From assembly GCF_009731355.2 (NCBI RefSeq), contig NZ_AP022810.1:1-64000 (forward strand): a stretch of DNA of 64,000 nucleotides. Reading direction: 5' to 3'. The translations under genes and the position numbers were made by a program. The notes below the pieces were generated by a model, which did no database searches, was not told the DNA's origin, and worked only from the letters and a program-made list of their open reading frames with translations. Of the stretch, positions 1 through 20,524 are shown piece after piece. The first letter of the stretch is position 1, and each line of letters starts with the position of its first letter. The stretch comes from Desulfuromonas sp. AOP6. GTDB taxonomy: Bacteria > Desulfobacterota > Desulfuromonadia > Desulfuromonadales > SZUA-540.

Positions 1-201
1 TCCCGTTGCGTTGAATACCCCAGACCAAAAAATTCTTGCAAAGATTCAACACCTTTGGTAGTTTCACTAACACCATAAAAGAAAAACAGCGCAAAAAGGC
101 CTTTCATGTTACATGTTTTAGAGATATTCACAGCTGTGGAAAACCCTGTTAATATCCTCTCCCTCCATTCCTCATTCTAAATACAAGTGAAGTAACCAGC
201 C
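1..201. promoter_or_regulatory. dnaA upstream region with DnaA boxes
   Basis: Non-coding DNA upstream of dnaA. A consensus DnaA box lies on the minus strand at 135-143 (TGTGGAAAA, read as TTTTCCACA). A near-match, ATATTCACA, lies on the plus strand at 124-132, so the two sit back to back two bases apart. Such boxes are expected both at oriC and in autoregulated dnaA promoters. Only 201 bases are visible, so it cannot be said whether the main box array lies further left. Confidence 0.55.
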
Positions 202-1563
202 ATGAATAAACTTTGGCGAGAAACACTAGGGCTATTGGAACAAGAACTGCCGCCCCAGCATTTCTCCACCTGGATAAAACCTATCCGCTTCATAAGCGTA
301 GATAAAGATCTAGTAAAGCTTGAGGTTCCGAACCGCTTTATTTTGGACTGGATTACAGAGCACTATCTCTATTTAATTAAAAATTCATTAGAAAATATTG
401 GAGCTATTCCTTATCAGGTCAAAATAAAGGTGGGAAATGCACCAAAAGAGCAGAAAAACAATCTTGTTAAAGATACAGATAAAGAGGGAATAAAATCAGA
501 AAACGAAACACAAGTTCAAAAAAAAAAAAAAACGTGGAATGGGGCGATAAACCTTAACCCAAAATACACTTTCAAGGAATTTGTTTCTGGTTCATCAAAT
601 CAATTTGCATCGGCAGCTGCAATGGCAGTTGCAAACAATCCTGCCACAACATATAACCCTCTATTTATATATGGTGGTGTGGGCCTCGGTAAAACCCATC
701 TTATAAATGCAATAGGAAATAAAATCATATCTGAAAATTCTTCTATGAAAGTGTGTTACTACACTTCTGAAAAATTTATGAATGAATTAATAAATTCTCT
801 CAGATACGCTAAGATGGATGAATTCAGAAATAAATTCAGAAGTATGGATGTTCTTTTAATAGATGATGTTCAATTTATAGCTGGTAAAGAAAGAACACAA
901 GAAGAATTTTTTCACACTTTTAACTCTTTATATGAATCTCACAAACAAATAGTTGTCACATCAGATAAATTTCCAAAAGAAATACCAGGTTTAGAAGAAC
1001 GATTAAGATCAAGATTCGAATGGGGTTTAATTGCTGACATACAAGCTCCTGATATCGAAACAAAACAAGCGATTTTAAAAATGAAGGCAGAACAAAATAA
1101 AATACATCTTCCAGAAGATGTTGCCTTATTCTTATCTAATTCAATAAGTAGCAATGTCAGAGAATTAGAGGGATATTTAGTAAGATTAGGTGCTTACGCA
1201 AGTTTAACAGCAACACCAGTAACGCTTACTATGGCCAAGGAAGTTTTAAAAGATATACTTGTTGAGAAAAATAAAGAAATAACAGTTGAAGAAATACAAA
1301 AAATAGTAGGAGCATATTTTAATTTAAAAATTATTGATTTGAAATCATCAAAAAGACTAAAAAATCTTGTTCTGCCTAGACAAATAGCAATGTATTTATC
1401 AAGACAACTAACGTCATGCTCTTTTCCTGATATAGGAGAAAAATTTGGGGGAAAAGATCATTCAACTATAATACACGCAATTAAAAAGATAGAAAAAGCA
1501 ATGAATGAAGATATTGAATTAAGATTAACAATATCAAATATAAGAAACAGTATAACCAGTTAG
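202..1563 (+). CDS. dnaA: Chromosomal replication initiator protein DnaA
   Basis: DnaA binds DnaA boxes at oriC, oligomerises with ATP and melts the origin. The 453-residue length is normal. The N-terminal interaction domain covers about residues 1-80 and is followed by a charged Lys-rich linker. The AAA+ domain has Walker A GGVGLGKTHL near residue 158 and Walker B LLIDDVQF near 218. The C-terminal DNA-binding domain carries the signature GKDHSTIIHAI near residue 417. The ATG start follows a purine-rich stretch. The gene heads the usual dnaA-dnaN-recF-gyrB order. The coding sequence is noticeably AT-rich compared with genes beyond 7 kb. Confidence 0.98.
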   Translation: MNKLWRETLGLLEQELPPQHFSTWIKPIRFISVDKDLVKLEVPNRFILDWITEHYLYLIKNSLENIGAIPYQVKIKVGNAPKEQKNNLVKDTDKEGIKSENETQVQKKKKTWNGAINLNPKYTFKEFVSGSSNQFASAAAMAVANNPATTYNPLFIYGGVGLGKTHLINAIGNKIISENSSMKVCYYTSEKFMNELINSLRYAKMDEFRNKFRSMDVLLIDDVQFIAGKERTQEEFFHTFNSLYESHKQIVVTSDKFPKEIPGLEERLRSRFEWGLIADIQAPDIETKQAILKMKAEQNKIHLPEDVALFLSNSISSNVRELEGYLVRLGAYASLTATPVTLTMAKEVLKDILVEKNKEITVEEIQKIVGAYFNLKIIDLKSSKRLKNLVLPRQIAMYLSRQLTSCSFPDIGEKFGGKDHSTIIHAIKKIEKAMNEDIELRLTISNIRNSITS

Positions 1564-1814
1564 ATTGATGTTGTTTAAAACAAATGTATAAATTGTTTAC
1601 AACTCTCTTCTTATAAACAAAAAATGTCATTAAAAATACTTACTAACAAAAAGAGAATTTTTTCAAAATTTTACCAACAGGTTTTTAAATTTTCTAAGCA
1701 TCTAAAATTTAATGATTTTTTATAGATATCAACAAACTAACAGCACCTATTACTACTACTATAATATCTTTTTAAAACCATAATAATAATAGAGTAAAAC
1801 TCCTGGAGGGGAAA
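1564..1814 (+). other. dnaA-dnaN intergenic AT-rich region, candidate origin unwinding element
   Basis: A 251-base AT-rich spacer without a gene. At about 1749-1762 it contains a run of TAC triplets (ATTACTACTACTATAAT), preceded by the short GC-richer block CAGCACC and by a degenerate DnaA-box-like ATATCAACA. It is followed by a second triplet run of TAATAATAATAG at 1781-1792. This layout (box, GC-rich spacer, triplets, AT-rich DNA) resembles the DnaA-trio unwinding system known from Bacillus subtilis. No consensus DnaA box is visible here, so the assignment is tentative. The dnaN ribosome binding site GGAGG ends the region. Confidence 0.35.
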
Positions 1815-2933
1815 ATGTATTTTATAATCTCAAAAGATCATTTTCTTAAAGGTTTAGGAAAAGTTCAGGGAATTGTAGAAAAAAGAAACACTATTCCTAT
1901 ATTATCAAACGTGTTAATCGAAGCAAAAGACAATGAAGTGATTTTTACTGCGACTGATTTAGAGGTGGGCATGCAGACATCTTATGAATCAGACGTAAAA
2001 CAAAATGGAAAAATAACGGTTTCGGCAAAAAAAATATATGAAATTGTAAAAGAGTTGCCAGATAAAGATATCTCTTTCAAAGCAAAAGATAATTCATGGA
2101 TAGAAATAAAGTGTAACAAATCTATTTTTAATATAGTCGGATTATCATCCGATGAATTTCCTTTTTTTCCAGCAATTCAAAATATTTCCTATTTCGATGT
2201 AAATTCAGAAATAATAAAAGAAATGTTGGATAAAACCTCTTTTTCTATTTCAAATGACGAAACGAAATATAATCTCAACGGTATTTTTGTAAAAACCATA
2301 AATTACAAAAACGAAAATAAACTAAGATTTGTTTCTACTGATGGCCACAGATTATCTTTAATTCAAAAGAATACTGAGGTAAGTGATATTTCTGAATTAA
2401 AAAAAGGAATTATAATACCTAAAAAAGGGATAACAGAATTAAGAAAAATAGTCGATGAAAGTTTTAATTCAATAAAAATAGGATTTATCGATAATAATCT
2501 TGTTGTAATACAGGGAAAAACAACGGTTTTAATGAGGTTAGTAGATGGAGAATTTCCCGATTATGATCGCGTTATTCCAAAAGAAAACAACATAGATATA
2601 GAAATAAATGTGAACGAATTTTTTCATGCACTTAAAAGAATTTCTATTTTGGCAAGTGAAAAATCGAAAGGGGTCAAATTTTTATTCAAGGAAAATATAT
2701 TAGAAATATCATCTTCTAATCCAGACTATGGCGATGCTAAAGAAGATCTAACTATAAATTATAATGGTCCTGAATTATCAATTGGATTCAACGCAAAGTA
2801 TCTCATAGATATAATGAGTAGTTTTACAGATAAAAATATTAAAATTTCAATCAAGGATAATTTATCACCAGGACTTCTCACCCCGGTTGATAGTTCAGAT
2901 TATATAGCTGTAGTTATGCCAATGCGAATTTAA
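1815..2933 (+). CDS. dnaN: DNA polymerase III beta sliding clamp
   Basis: The clamp forms a ring around DNA and tethers the replicative polymerase. At 372 residues the protein has the usual length for three clamp domains. Family features include the early RNTIPILSNVLIEA segment, RLVDGEFPDYDRVIP in the third quarter and the C-terminal VVMPMRI tail, the conserved end of the family. The start is supported by GGAGG about seven bases upstream of the ATG. It follows dnaA and precedes recF by nine bases. Composition is extreme: a sampled stretch at 2401-2460 has 14 G+C in 60 bases. Confidence 0.98.
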   Translation: MYFIISKDHFLKGLGKVQGIVEKRNTIPILSNVLIEAKDNEVIFTATDLEVGMQTSYESDVKQNGKITVSAKKIYEIVKELPDKDISFKAKDNSWIEIKCNKSIFNIVGLSSDEFPFFPAIQNISYFDVNSEIIKEMLDKTSFSISNDETKYNLNGIFVKTINYKNENKLRFVSTDGHRLSLIQKNTEVSDISELKKGIIIPKKGITELRKIVDESFNSIKIGFIDNNLVVIQGKTTVLMRLVDGEFPDYDRVIPKENNIDIEINVNEFFHALKRISILASEKSKGVKFLFKENILEISSSNPDYGDAKEDLTINYNGPELSIGFNAKYLIDIMSSFTDKNIKISIKDNLSPGLLTPVDSSDYIAVVMPMRI

Positions 2934-2942
2934 TCCTAAAAT

Positions 2943-4013
2943 ATGATTTTAAAAAACCTAAATATCAAAAACTTCAGAAATTTACATACTCTAAAATTGG
3001 ATTTTTCTGAAAAATTTAATTTTATTTATGGTAAGAACGGTCAAGGTAAAACGAATATAATTGAGGCTATTTATTTACTGGCTAATCTCAAAAGTTTTAG
3101 AGTTTCAAAAAATTCGGAACTCATTACATTTCACAAAAATAAAGCATCTATTAACTCAACTGTGAATTTTAGTAATTATAATAATATATATAATCTTATA
3201 ATAGAAAATGAATCTAAAAAGATTTTTATAAATGATAAAAAACCAACCAATTTAAATGATTATTATGGTGATTTAAAAGTAATAGTATTTAATCCGGACG
3301 ATATAAATATAATAAAAGGTTATCCCCAACAAAGAAGAGCTCTATTAGATAGAGCTATTTTTCTTTCTGATAAAAATTATTTAAATAAACTCATTTTTTT
3401 TAACAAGTGCTTAAAACAACGCAATTTGATATTAAAAAATGACACTAAAAATATAGATGTATATAACGAAATATTTTTAAAATCATCTTTTGATATCTAT
3501 TATGAAAGAAAAAAATATATAAACAGAATTAAACCAATTTTTAATAAAATTTATAAAGAAATTACTAATAATAATGAAGATCCGAATATCATCTATAATG
3601 AAAACGATATAAAAATTTTAATGGCAAAACTAGAAGAAAATATTGAAAAAAATATTGAAAAAGAAAAAATTTATGGGATGACACTTTATGGTCCACACAG
3701 AGATGATCCTTTTTTTTTATTAAACGATTTATTAATAAAAAAATATGGATCACAGGGGCAGCAAAAATCATTTATGTTAGCTTTCAAATCCGCACAAGTA
3801 TTTGATATAAAGAATGAAACTGGTTTTTGTCCAATATTGCTTTTAGATGACATGACAAGCGAACTTGATAGTGATCGTCGAAAATATTTTTATAAATTTC
3901 TTTTTAATCATGAAGGACAAGTTTTTTTAACGGGTACAGATAAAAATGTTTTCGAAGATAAAGTTTTTATGGCGAGTAAATTTTTTGAAGTGATAAATGG
4001 AAGTATTAATTAA
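2943..4013 (+). CDS. recF: DNA replication and repair protein RecF
   Basis: RecF is an SMC-like ATPase that helps load RecA at single-strand gaps. The 356-residue frame has Walker A GKNGQGKTN near residue 30, the LYGPHRDD segment, the GSQGQQKSFMLAFK signature region near 265 and Walker B ILLLDDMTSELD near 300, in the order expected for the family. It sits nine bases after dnaN and 18 bases before gyrB, so it is probably cotranscribed. Base composition is as AT-rich as dnaN, with long A and T runs, yet the frame is intact. Confidence 0.96.
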   Translation: MILKNLNIKNFRNLHTLKLDFSEKFNFIYGKNGQGKTNIIEAIYLLANLKSFRVSKNSELITFHKNKASINSTVNFSNYNNIYNLIIENESKKIFINDKKPTNLNDYYGDLKVIVFNPDDINIIKGYPQQRRALLDRAIFLSDKNYLNKLIFFNKCLKQRNLILKNDTKNIDVYNEIFLKSSFDIYYERKKYINRIKPIFNKIYKEITNNNEDPNIIYNENDIKILMAKLEENIEKNIEKEKIYGMTLYGPHRDDPFFLLNDLLIKKYGSQGQQKSFMLAFKSAQVFDIKNETGFCPILLLDDMTSELDSDRRKYFYKFLFNHEGQVFLTGTDKNVFEDKVFMASKFFEVINGSIN

Positions 4014-12162: not shown

Positions 12163-12251
12163 GCACAAGGCCGCGCACTGCCCACGGAAAAAAAGAAAAG
12201 GCGGGTTTGATGAGTGCATCGAGCTAGGGTTAGGTTGGAGGATTTCGCACG

Positions 12252-17440: not shown

Positions 17441-18136
17441 ATGAAAAAGAAAGCCGTGGTTCTCTACAGCGGGGGACTGGATTCCACCACCTGCATGGCC
17501 ATTGCGCAAGCGGAAGGCTTTGTCCCTTACGCCATGAGCTTTGCCTACGGTCAGCGACACAGCGTCGAGGTAAGCAAAGCCATGGAATATGCCAAGGAGA
17601 TTGGCGCCAAAGACCATCATCTGGTCGAATTCGATTTGCGTCGTATCGGTGGCAGCGCCCTTACTTCCGACCTGGAGGTGCCCAAGGAAGGGGTGGAGGA
17701 GGGGAATATCCCCGTTACCTATGTACCGGCGCGCAATACCATCTTTCTCTCTTTCGCCCTGGGCTGGGCGGAAGTTCTCGGCGCCTTCGATATTTATATC
17801 GGTGTCAATGCCCTGGACTATTCCGGATATCCTGACTGCCGGCCGGAATATATCGCCGCTTTTGAAACCCTGGCCAATCTGGCTACCCGGGAAGGGGTGG
17901 AAGGCCGCGGACGCTACCGGATCCATACCCCGCTGATGACCTTGACCAAAGGGGAAATCATTCGACGCGGTCTGCAGCTTGGGGTTAACTATGCGCTGAC
18001 CCACTCCTGTTATGATCCTTCGCCAGAAGGGCTTTCCTGTGGGATCTGCGACTCCTGCCGGTTGCGCCTGAAAGGGTTTGCCGAGGTCGGGGTGGCCGAT
18101 CCCATCCCTTATGCCGGACGGACGGACAAGCGTTGA
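17441..18136 (+). CDS. queC: 7-cyano-7-deazaguanine synthase
   Basis: Converts 7-carboxy-7-deazaguanine to preQ0 with ATP and ammonia in queuosine synthesis. The 231-residue protein opens with the PP-loop [11 protein letters not shown]. It has [10 protein letters not shown] near residue 90, [16 protein letters not shown] near 122 and the zinc motif C-x9-C-x2-C-x2-C near 188-204 ([17 protein letters not shown]). It is followed 50 bases later by folE2, which makes the first precursor of the same pathway, so the pair is probably a functional operon. Confidence 0.96.
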
Positions 18137-18186
18137 ATCAGCCAGAAGCAAAAGCACGGATAACAGACAAGGAACCATAAAGAACA

Positions 18187-18999
18187 ATGACTGATAGGCT
18201 GAAAAGCGACGATCTCTCTAATACTCCGGCCATGCCCGATATGCAGAAGGCACGGGATACCCGTAATATCCCCATCGACAAGGTCGGGGTGAAAGATATC
18301 CGCTACCCCATCGTAGTGCTGGACAAAAGCCGCGAAAGCCAGCACACCGTGGCGCGCATCAACATGTATGTCGACTTGCCGCATCACTTCAAGGGAACCC
18401 ACATGAGCCGTTTCGTGGAGATTCTCAACCAGTATCGCGGCGAGATCAGCATCGAGAGCCTCGACACCATCCTGCAGGACATGAAGGATCGCCTCGATGC
18501 TTCCTGCGCCCATATGGAACTGGAATTTCCCTATTTCATCGAAAAGGAGGCACCGGCCTCCGGCGCCAAGGGGTTGATGGAATATCAGTGCCAGATGATC
18601 GGCACCCTCGGCCAGGAGGCCGACTTTATTCTCGGCGCCACCGTGCCGGTGACCTCCCTGTGTCCCTGCTCCCGTGAGATCAGCGCTCGCGGAGCCCACA
18701 ACCAGCGCAGCGCTATCCATGTGCAGATCCGCTACCGGGGACATGTCTGGCTGGAAGACCTCATCGCCTGGGTGGAGGCCTGTGGCAGTGCGCCCGTCTA
18801 CGCTCTGCTCAAGCGCGAAGACGAAAAGGCAGTCACCGAGCAGGCTTATGACAATCCCATGTTTGTGGAAGACATCGTGCGGGCGGTCACACAAAAACTC
18901 AAGGGGGTTGAGGAAATCCTCTGGTTTCGGGTTGAGTGCGAAAACTTTGAGTCAATCCACAACCATTCTGCCTATGCCCTGGTCGAGTGGGCGCGCTGA
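18187..18999 (+). CDS. folE2: GTP cyclohydrolase FolE2 (type IB)
   Basis: Converts GTP to dihydroneopterin triphosphate, the entry step of folate and queuosine synthesis. The 270-residue protein carries the COG1469 features DIQKARDTRN-like MQKARDTRNIPIDKVG near residue 19, GTHMSRFVEIL near 70, the metal-ligand segment TSLCPCSREISARGAHNQRS near 157 and CENFESIHNHSAYA near the end. FolE2 can use metals other than zinc and often supports growth under zinc limitation. Its neighbour queC links it to preQ0 synthesis. Confidence 0.95.
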   Translation: MTDRLKSDDLSNTPAMPDMQKARDTRNIPIDKVGVKDIRYPIVVLDKSRESQHTVARINMYVDLPHHFKGTHMSRFVEILNQYRGEISIESLDTILQDMKDRLDASCAHMELEFPYFIEKEAPASGAKGLMEYQCQMIGTLGQEADFILGATVPVTSLCPCSREISARGAHNQRSAIHVQIRYRGHVWLEDLIAWVEACGSAPVYALLKREDEKAVTEQAYDNPMFVEDIVRAVTQKLKGVEEILWFRVECENFESIHNHSAYALVEWAR

Positions 19000-19751
19000 A
19001 AGCCCAACCTGTGGATAAGGTTGTGGAAAATGTGAATAAGGGGGGTTTCTCCGGTGGGGAATTCCCCCTAGACCCTTTGAGGCATCATCTGGGAATATTG
19101 GCAAAGGAGCCGGTTCCCGGTCGGGTAAAGACGCGGCTGAGCCCGCCTCTGACATCGGCTGAGGCCGCTCAGCTCTATGAGGTCTGCCTGCGGGAGACCG
19201 TGCAACGCCTGCGCGAAACGGGTGTGAGCCTTACCCTTTTTTATGCCGGTTCAGAAGCCTATTTCCGCCGTACTTTCCCTGATATACCCCTGCAGCCCCA
19301 AGAAGGAAACGACCTAGGCGAGCGCCTGGAGAGAGCTCTGTGCTTCCTGTTCCGTCAGGGGGCGGCCGGCGCCGCCCTGGTCGGCTCGGACAGCCCCGAT
19401 ATCCCTTTGCACCTGGTGAAGGAGGCCTTTCAGTTTCTGGCGGAAGAGACAGCTCTCACAATTCCTGCCCTGGATGGCGGCTATGTTCTCGTGGGTGAGC
19501 GCGATCACCATCCTCAGCTCTTTCGCGATATTCCCTGGAGTACGGCCCACGTCCTCGCGGAAACGAGGCGCCGGGTCGCTGAGCTGAACCTGAGCTATCG
19601 GGAACTGACCCCGTGGGATGATGTCGATGACCTTCCCTCGCTGGGGCGACTGCTCGAGCGTTCCCCCGCGAGCGAGACGGCCTGTTTCGTGCGGGCTCAT
19701 CTGACGAAATACCTGAGTTTAATTGAAGGGTTAAAAAGGCAAAGGGGTTGA
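18987..19751 (+). CDS. TIGR04282/DUF2064 glycosyltransferase-like protein
   Basis: The conserved part begins with LGILAKEPVPGRVKTRLSPP, the nucleotide-sugar-binding-like start of the TIGR04282 family. It continues with VGSDSPDIPLHL, LDGGYVLVGERDHHPQLFRDIPWST and a C-terminal DDVDDLPSLGRL segment. The substrate is unknown. The start is uncertain: GTG at 18987 (overlapping folE2 by 13 bases), GTG at 19032 and TTG at 19077 are all in frame, and the family sequence begins only after 19077. The stretch between folE2 and 19077 holds three DnaA boxes, so a downstream start is attractive. Confidence 0.82.
   Translation: MGALKAQPVDKVVENVNKGGFSGGEFPLDPLRHHLGILAKEPVPGRVKTRLSPPLTSAEAAQLYEVCLRETVQRLRETGVSLTLFYAGSEAYFRRTFPDIPLQPQEGNDLGERLERALCFLFRQGAAGAALVGSDSPDIPLHLVKEAFQFLAEETALTIPALDGGYVLVGERDHHPQLFRDIPWSTAHVLAETRRRVAELNLSYRELTPWDDVDDLPSLGRLLERSPASETACFVRAHLTKYLSLIEGLKRQRG
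19010..19039. promoter_or_regulatory. Cluster of three DnaA boxes
   Basis: Three minus-strand DnaA boxes occur in 30 bases: TGTGGATAA at 19010-19018 (perfect TTATCCACA), TGTGGAAAA at 19022-19030 (TTTTCCACA) and TGTGAATAA at 19031-19039 (TTATTCACA). All match TTWTNCACA. They begin 10 bases after the folE2 stop codon. The function could be DnaA titration, gene control or a secondary loading site. Confidence 0.75.
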
Positions 19752-19779
19752 TTTTGCGGGTTTTTCCAGCCGATAGACG

Positions 19780-19808
19780 TTGACAGGTGCAGAAGGATGG
19801 CCGATAAT
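19780..19808 (+). promoter_or_regulatory. Sigma-70-type promoter of the tol operon
   Basis: TTGACA at 19780-19785 and GATAAT at 19803-19808 are separated by 17 bases, almost a textbook housekeeping promoter. It lies 44 bases before the tolQ start, and the tolQ ribosome binding site AGGAGG follows. Confidence 0.7.
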
Positions 19809-19852
19809 TCAGCCCTTGTACGGACGCGCACTACCTAAAAGGAGGCCTTATT

Positions 19853-20524
19853 TTGGATCTCATCCTGAACGCCGGACCGGTCGTCAAACTGGTCATGTTG
19901 ATACTGGCCTATTTTTCCATCGTCAGCTGGGCCATCATTTTTTTCAAGTTTCGTGAAATCCACCGAGCCACCAAAGATTCCTCCGGTTTTCTCGATTTTT
20001 TCTGGAGCAAGAAACGTCTGGACGTCATCGGCCAGGGACTCAAGGATTTCCGCCACTCCCCCCTGACAGTCCTCTTCCGCGAAGCCTATCAGGAGCTGCT
20101 CAAGGATCAGCGCCGCCGGGATCCCGACGAAGAGCCGGCCTTCTCCGCTGATCTGGGCCGCGCGGAAAGCGTGGCTCGCGCCCTGCGTCGGGCCACCACC
20201 CAGGAGACGCAGCGCCTGGAAAAGTTCCTCACCTTTCTGGCCACCACCGGTTCGACGGCCCCCTTTATCGGCCTGTTCGGTACCGTCTGGGGCATCATGG
20301 ATTCCTTCCGTGGCATCGGCCAGACCGGCAGCGCTTCACTGGCCGTCGTCGCGCCGGGTATATCCGAAGCCCTCGTGGCCACGGCCATCGGCTTGGTGGC
20401 GGCCATTCCCGCCGTCGTGGGCTACAACCATTTTGTCAACAAGGTCAATGTGCTCACGGGCGAGATGGATAATTTCAGTCAGGAATTCCTCAATATCGTC
20501 GAGCGCATGGGACGGAGAGGCTGA
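19853..20524 (+). CDS. tolQ: Tol-Pal system protein TolQ
   Basis: Inner membrane proton-channel subunit that with TolR energises TolA during outer membrane constriction. The 223-residue protein has three membrane segments: one at residues 8-30 and two in the C-terminal half around GSTAPFIGLFGTVWGIMDSF and ALVATAIGLVAAIPAVVGYN, the MotA/ExbB signature region. The start is TTG at 19853, nine bases after AGGAGG. It is the first gene of a tolQ-tolR-tolA-tolB-pal-cpoB cluster and is preceded by a strong promoter. Confidence 0.95.
   Translation: MDLILNAGPVVKLVMLILAYFSIVSWAIIFFKFREIHRATKDSSGFLDFFWSKKRLDVIGQGLKDFRHSPLTVLFREAYQELLKDQRRRDPDEEPAFSADLGRAESVARALRRATTQETQRLEKFLTFLATTGSTAPFIGLFGTVWGIMDSFRGIGQTGSASLAVVAPGISEALVATAIGLVAAIPAVVGYNHFVNKVNVLTGEMDNFSQEFLNIVERMGRRG

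Follow-up and report, generated by a model that had tools for sequence, protein, structure and literature searches.

Elements made of DnaA boxes outside the replication origin are understood mostly from work on E. coli and B. subtilis. The DnaA protein of E. coli prefers tandem boxes 2-3 bp apart, and a separation of 3 bp is among the arrangements preferred in ChIP-seq (PMC11317965). E. coli boxes are reported to be concentrated near oriC, which the authors of that report read as favouring titration (PMC12371093). A restraining effect of off-oriC clusters on initiation is reported for B. subtilis (PMC5295017) and for Streptomyces (PMC5742627). Removal of six clusters is described as leading to early initiation in B. 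subtilis, and the same paper also states that clusters with significant roles were not identified in this species (PMC5295017). As for the lineage considered here, the 2016 paper on Desulfuromonas soudanensis, in its parts that bear on the matter, mentions DnaA boxes only as software predictions (PMC4914508), and no description of such an element in the order Desulfuromonadales was found in the one literature library searched. Here we analyze a DnaA-box element whose build is fixed across this order, starting from a window of 64,000 nucleotides of Desulfuromonas sp. AOP6, the genome of which is a single contig of 3,269,909 bases starting near dnaA.

The triple-box module of the AOP6 genome

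The first-pass annotation had reported three DnaA boxes of one orientation, one of them perfect, 19 kb from dnaA; they were found exactly as claimed, all on the minus strand (Table 1). The boxes are arranged head-to-tail at offsets 0, 12 and 21. The 3 bp between boxes 1 and 2 fall within the 2-3 bp spacing of the E. coli double box, and the module, with several consensus boxes close together, has the sequence features of the general kind, a DnaA-box cluster outside oriC. Its placing after folE2 and ahead of the conserved part of a DUF2064 gene, also proposed earlier, agrees with the open reading frames and with the Pfam and TIGR04282 matches, which start at residues 75 and 37 of the DUF2064 frame.

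Table 1. Features of the AOP6 window, and the dinG gene of the same genome
Feature	Position	Strand	Remarks
Single box TTTTCCACA upstream of dnaA	135..143	-	inverted box pair there in many relatives
dnaA	202..1563	+	TIGR00362
dnaA-dnaN intergenic region, likely oriC	1564..1814		AT-rich; trio-like tract
DnaA-trio-like tract	1748..1761	-	TAGTAGTAGTAATA on the minus strand
Site A position, module absent	12163..12251		best match 10 mismatches; most relatives examined have the module
folE2 (GTP cyclohydrolase), gene 5' of module	18187..18999	+	Pfam GCHY-1
DUF2064 / TIGR04282 ORF	18987..19751	+	longest frame crosses module; conserved part begins 3' of module
Triple DnaA-box module, site B	19010..19039	-	plus-strand reading TGTGGATAA-GGT-TGTGGAAAA-TGTGAATAA; layout 9-3-9-0-9 bp, 30 bp
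DnaA box 1, TTATCCACA, perfect	19010..19018	-	pattern TTWTNCACA
DnaA box 2, TTTTCCACA, 3 bp from box 1	19022..19030	-	pattern TTWTNCACA
DnaA box 3, TTATTCACA, abuts box 2	19031..19039	-	pattern TTWTNCACA
DinG/YoaA-like helicase gene with site C	G000:C1:3097962-3099773 (L011, L248)		module at codons 95-105, C1:3098246

Single boxes are unremarkable in the window (6 against 2.9 expected, a number reached in 10 of 100 shuffles), and the perfect box occurs 13 times in the genome against 9 for the pattern read backwards. A chance triple is nevertheless very unlikely, as had been stated: with a rough estimate from the window box density, same-strand triples within 30 bp are expected 1.3e-7 times per 64 kb and 6.4e-6 times per genome. 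The proposed search of the whole 3.27 Mb for similar clusters, carried out on same-strand TTWTNCACA pairs separated by no more than 30 bp (0.10 pairs expected), gave only the module and one further place, C1:3098246, with the identical 12/9 spacing. Pairs of the form TGTGNAWAA..TTWTNCACA were absent from the AOP6 genome, and the remaining pair orientation gave 1 match in the 463,909 bases scanned for it. An RNA element at the module was ruled out by the lack of any Rfam match in 18000-20500 and by the fold of 18995-19090 (z = -1.29).

Conservation, placing and geometry in Desulfuromonadales

With the pattern TGTGGATAANNNTGTGGANANTGTGNATAA and up to 3 mismatches, the module was recovered from 123 of the 136 order genomes (78/84 among the good-quality ones). 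At up to 2 mismatches it is present in 124 of 277 class genomes: 112/136 in the order and 12/141 outside it, these 12 all belonging to one family (f25). The reversed pattern, taken as control, had no match in the 136 order genomes or in the 277 class genomes. In family f25, folE2 is present in 69 of 76 genomes, and no boxes were found there within 260 nt 3' of folE2 in 30 of 30 loci (the best 30 of the 69 folE2-bearing genomes). Both genus-mates of AOP6 (G001 and G002) have the triple with the same spacing between folE2 and DUF2064. The first-pass annotation had proposed to look for the cluster beside folE2 in relatives and to give the idea up if every close relative sharing the gene order were devoid of it; the cluster is retained in both genus-mates and across the order. 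Such conservation over a whole order, with fixed spacing, probably reflects a role in the timing of chromosome copying and not a chance match. The named records retrieved by FolE2 similarity bear mostly Desulfuromonadales or Deltaproteobacteria names. Cultured bearers of the module among them are Desulfuromusa kysingii DSM 7343 (L133) and Malonomonas rubra DSM 5091 (L119). One locus labelled as a Chloroflexi MAG (L139) has a Desulfuromonadales-type folE2 locus with the module, and is probably a mis-binned contig.

The copies fall mainly into three sites, identified by comparing 30 pattern matches and 20 wider stretches with the window proteins. Site A is non-coding, with an endonuclease/phosphatase-like gene on one side and nth on the other. 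Site B, that of the window, is non-coding, 3' of folE2 and 5' of DUF2064 or tolQ. Site C lies inside dinG. The matches listed (genomes G000-G109 at up to 3 mismatches, with one G109 copy from the search at up to 2, and G110-G131 at up to 2; G132-G135 are left out, G133 and G135 having been read separately) comprise 171 instances in 115 genomes: 87 correspond to B, 47 to A by position, and 37 to neither. These 37 are distributed as follows: 24 lie inside dinG matches, 7 belong to A or B but have a marker gene that is absent, truncated or on a different contig, and 6 are unplaced. By lists assembled by hand, 20 of 21 sampled families have at least one copy at A, B or C. Among the matches listed and on the same contig, site A is 10.5-12.5 kb from dnaA in 32/32 measurable cases and site B 16.9-27.4 kb in 28/33, the exceptions for B being one copy at -24 kb, on the other side of dnaA, and four at 33-87 kb; all measured copies of A and B are on the dnaA strand. 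In G135, outside this list, B is found about 25.5 kb away on the other side of dnaA.

Sites A and B were also examined in loci collected without the motif. The module was sought in the 400 nt that follow folE2 in 57 loci (L090-L146), which had been retrieved through FolE2 similarity: 41 have it at up to 3 mismatches, none at 4-5, and 16 are at 6 or more. These 16 misses consist of 4 Geobacter-named loci with another geometry, 2 with a convergent pair, 1 masked (L137) and 9 without boxes in the 240 nt viewed; 12 of 53 order-type loci are without site B despite folE2, one of them masked with N. The convergent pair, TGTGGATAA ... TTATCCACA, replaces the triple after folE2 in L136 and L138. For site A, 28 of 30 nth loci had sufficient upstream DNA, and the module is present in 20 of these at up to 3 mismatches and in 2 at 4-5, with 6 lacking it. 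The mean information per position is 1.37 bits (A) and 1.49 bits (B) for the module, and 0.10 and 0.17 bits for the flanks; the values come from rows with up to 3 mismatches only and are hence conditioned on the pattern. Position 12, free in the search pattern, is still C in 38/41 copies of B and 17/20 of A.

Loss and variation were observed as well. Site A is kept with 1 mismatch in G001 and is absent from G002. The AOP6 genome (G000) keeps B and has lost A, so that no single copy is indispensable. Upstream of nth in G088 (L222), site A consists of two wider-spaced boxes with no proper middle box, possibly a decayed form or an alternative geometry. A fourth box-like sequence, CTGTGGAAAA, directly follows the site A module of G130 (L308 13592). 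In G102, module copies (L310 3543 and L311 2801) were seen near a 624-aa gene that in AOP6 lies left of dnaA, possibly a further origin-proximal site in family f12. The only match of G098 among those listed is a weak triple (3 mismatches) directly upstream of dnaA (G098:C176:27730).

The module can outlive its neighbours, A without syntenic nth and B without folE2 or DUF2064. DUF2064 is absent from L078 and L079, where tolQ comes after the module, and in L087 and L314 queC precedes it with no folE2 between. In G130 (L308), nth is on another contig and site A, 12.08 kb from dnaA, is flanked by the endonuclease gene and by a convergent gene, cysteine-synthase-like by eye; in G041 (L309) its neighbours are the endonuclease gene and a convergent pbp1a, the only intervening ORF being of 73 aa. 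The candidate explanation of the module as coding for the DUF2064 N-terminus was rejected on the DUF2064-less contexts and the flat flanks. Among the matches listed, no copy of site B was seen in genomes whose folE2 has moved by more than 150 kb (G112, G113, G118) or is inverted near -19 kb (G029, G036, G037, G038, G040); the module is therefore not wholly independent of place. In another order, three genomes that start at dnaA (G166, G182, G186) have no folE2 or module in their first 40-60 kb or last 20 kb, although a folE2-linked module does occur in their family (G176). Closeness to the origin is thus a feature of Desulfuromonadales, and it may be non-essential.

The geometry was scored after folE2 with a degenerate box allowing up to 2 mismatches. 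Offsets 0, 12 and 21 are found in 40 of 53 order-type loci. In four of the five Geobacter-named loci, a small sample, they are 0, 12 and 31; L143, the fifth, has two boxes separated by 2 bp. No third box was found at offsets 22-30 in 58 loci; offsets 33, 34 and 45 occur in 1, 1 and 2 loci. G176 shows 0/12/31 between folE2 and DUF2064 with no mismatch to the degenerate box; a scan of offsets 21 to 45 over 703,051 bases of DNA from outside the order gave no other match. The displacement of the third box in the Geobacter-named loci is exactly 10 bp, one helical turn, which would fit a requirement for three protein subunits to lie on one side of the helix.

Site C, the second cluster of the AOP6 genome, is 172 kb from dnaA; in G109, G112, G113 and G118, dinG and its copy are 20-26 kb from dnaA. 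It was counted in at least 25 genomes of 8 families, excluding G003, whose dinG site (L250) is not among the matches listed. The N-terminal part of the helicase has weak RadC-like matches. Thirty orthologues were selected by protein similarity. Among them, T is the last base of the codon preceding GTG in 26 (7.3 expected from codon use) at codon 95, 26 (4.9 expected) at codon 99 and 20 (7.1 expected) at codon 102; CCT encodes each of the 16 prolines found at codon 99, and TCT each of the 6 serines. Among 561 codon columns ranked by wobble T, codons 99, 95 and 102 (boxes 2, 1 and 3) rank 1, 2 and 4, which counters an explanation by protein constraint alone; rank 3 is codon 92, outside any box position. 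A general codon-concordance test is weaker, the module window being 21st of 594. Some orthologues are without boxes (e.g. L252, L259, L273). In those that keep them, the boxes themselves appear to be selected, and not the peptide alone, and this wobble-base signature suggests that selection for DnaA boxes is possible inside coding sequence.

Candidate roles of the module

The explanation that we prefer, and hold to be moderately likely, is that the module is an off-origin site of DnaA-oligomer nucleation and an early-replicated DnaA sink, similar to datA or to the B. subtilis DnaA-box clusters (DBCs); the binding, the oligomer and the titrating or inactivating effect are what we infer from sequence comparison. 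We are led to it by the tandem-box preference and the concentration of boxes near oriC in E. coli, and by the clusters of B. subtilis and Streptomyces. Three head-to-tail boxes at fixed spacing would seed a short DnaA oligomer. Since A and B lie near dnaA, at about 12 kb and usually 17-27 kb, their copies would be doubled soon after initiation; the doubled copies would draw free or ATP-bound DnaA off oriC, and re-initiation would be damped. The DnaA of AOP6 is a normal TIGR00362 protein. Titration was one of three roles suggested in the first-pass annotation, and it is the one that best fits the conservation, the nearness to oriC and the persistence independent of neighbours, its effect on DnaA being a predicted one. 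Several points weigh against the sink, among them the loci that have folE2 and no site B, and the loss of A in AOP6. Two or three small clusters may make a weak one unless oligomers exceed three boxes, and the closeness to the origin is not absolute, given the distant or displaced copies of B and the dinG copy.

A broader proposal is possible and in our view rather doubtful. Triple-box nucleators would set the control of initiation throughout the class through their helical phase (offset 21 here, 31 in the Geobacter-named loci), the copies at about 12 and 20 kb from dnaA would report fork passage right after initiation, and the synonymous-codon copy in dinG would tie this control to DNA repair. 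The build would be that of neither datA nor DARS, with head-to-tail assembly of ATP-DnaA without IHF. The natural variants (10-bp shift, lost, coding-sequence and transposed copies) make the effects of spacing, orientation and distance to oriC on DnaA control testable beyond model species.

Among the alternatives to the preferred sink, control of transcription survives best, although we consider it unlikely. DnaA bound to the module would regulate nth, DUF2064-tol or dinG, and so couple replication to repair and envelope genes. The E. coli DnaA regulon is reported as compact; genes of replication and of repair belong to it, and double boxes precede mutH, polA and purH (PMC11317965). Sites A and C do touch repair genes (nth, dinG/YoaA-like), and four Geobacter-named loci have the module in the interval from folE2 to DUF2064. 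The earlier suggestion that it controls the downstream gene is nevertheless weakened by the copies of B kept without DUF2064 or without folE2, and by site C, which lies within a coding sequence. Site A is kept between convergent genes where syntenic nth is gone, so that a plain promoter role for A is unlikely. No conserved promoter was found within 30-40 nt of the module, and no sigma-70-like site in 18800-19300.

A DARS-like reactivation, in which the three boxes would assemble ADP-DnaA and release ADP, seems improbable. The module shares with DARS1 and DARS2 a fixed spacing of three boxes and the presence of more than one copy per genome (PMC5742627, PMC4585315). In DARS, however, box I opposes boxes II and III and a head-to-head contact is described as prominent (PMC5742627), whereas no such inversion was found in the window or in the 41 of 57 motif-free loci of site B. 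The head-to-tail order is imposed by the search pattern, yet these motif-free loci have it too. No conserved flank able to be an IHF or Fis site was seen.

We give an equally low probability to a roadblock or terminator at gene ends, where bound DnaA would halt RNA polymerase or insulate neighbouring genes. Such a role would fit the position of site B, 38 of 41 copies beginning 7-22 nt past the end of the FolE2 match, and the single orientation relative to the upstream gene, without exception, of the copies of A and B read in context. This shared orientation may however reflect descent only, and at site C a roadblock would block dinG itself.

The third role suggested earlier, a further origin of replication or a site of helicase loading at 19 kb, is very improbable. 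Tandem boxes are how DnaA assembles at origins, and three of them are present here. No trio tract, AT-rich or other unwinding element was found by eye beside them, and the GC content of 18001-20000 is 0.567. The cumulative GC skew, followed from -80 to +104 kb, reaches its lowest value about 4 kb to the left of dnaA; the plus strand remains G-rich through the minus-strand gene pbp1a at 13-15 kb, and between 18 and 22 kb the local skew is close to zero and marks no switch point. Of 30 dnaA-dnaN stretches from the order, 25, including that of AOP6, contain a TAYTAYTAY run, against none of 30 stretches upstream of dnaA. Because dnaA-dnaN holds the trio-like tract and the skew turns so close to dnaA, we conclude from these sequence features that the module is not an origin. 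The trio-like tract, together with the inverted boxes upstream of dnaA in many genomes, suggests a bipartite oriC.

The dnaA, dnaN and recF genes (window 1-4000) are very AT-rich, with a GC content of 0.25-0.31 in 2-kb bins against 0.50-0.66 beyond 8 kb. This prompted the idea of a foreign dnaA operon with a moved origin, which was ruled out by the trio-like tract in place and by the identities of AOP6 dnaA (90% to genus-mate G002 and up to 77% to other order members). The gene looks vertically inherited.

Chance or a coding artefact, to which one could relate the spacings of 12 and 9, both divisible by three, and the passage of the longest DUF2064 frame through the module, is extremely improbable and is by our reading already refuted by conservation at independent sites, with the empty reversed-pattern control in 277 genomes, the unconserved flanks and the convergent and DUF2064-less contexts all standing against it.

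Comparison with known systems

The first-pass annotation had likened the element to datA or DARS, and of this comparison we retain the datA-like sink. Like the module, datA of E. coli is a non-coding DnaA-box cluster off oriC, and it is reported to lower DnaA activity (PMC5742627, PMC4585315). It differs in requiring an IHF site at set spacing: the module is 30 bp long, and no IHF site at a fixed distance was seen in its flanks (0.10-0.17 bits per position) over the range tested, 30 nt before and 40 nt after, a test that a site farther off or at variable distance would escape. With the DARS1 and DARS2 core it has in common three boxes of identical spacing at more than one locus (PMC5742627); the orientation differs, box I being inverted in DARS and the module boxes all head-to-tail at intervals of 3 and 0 bp. 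The B. subtilis DBCs resemble the module in being several off-origin clusters (PMC5295017), and so does the off-origin DnaA-box cluster of Streptomyces coelicolor, said to repress untimely initiation (cited in PMC5742627). To our knowledge, no fixed three-box geometry has been described for the B. subtilis DBCs, and the module differs from them in having one. The E. coli double DnaA box (purH, mioC, polA, DARS2), a tandem 3 bp apart, corresponds to boxes 1 and 2 of the module (PMC11317965). The named E. coli sites are upstream of genes (PMC11317965), and the module differs from this double box by the addition of a third, abutting box.
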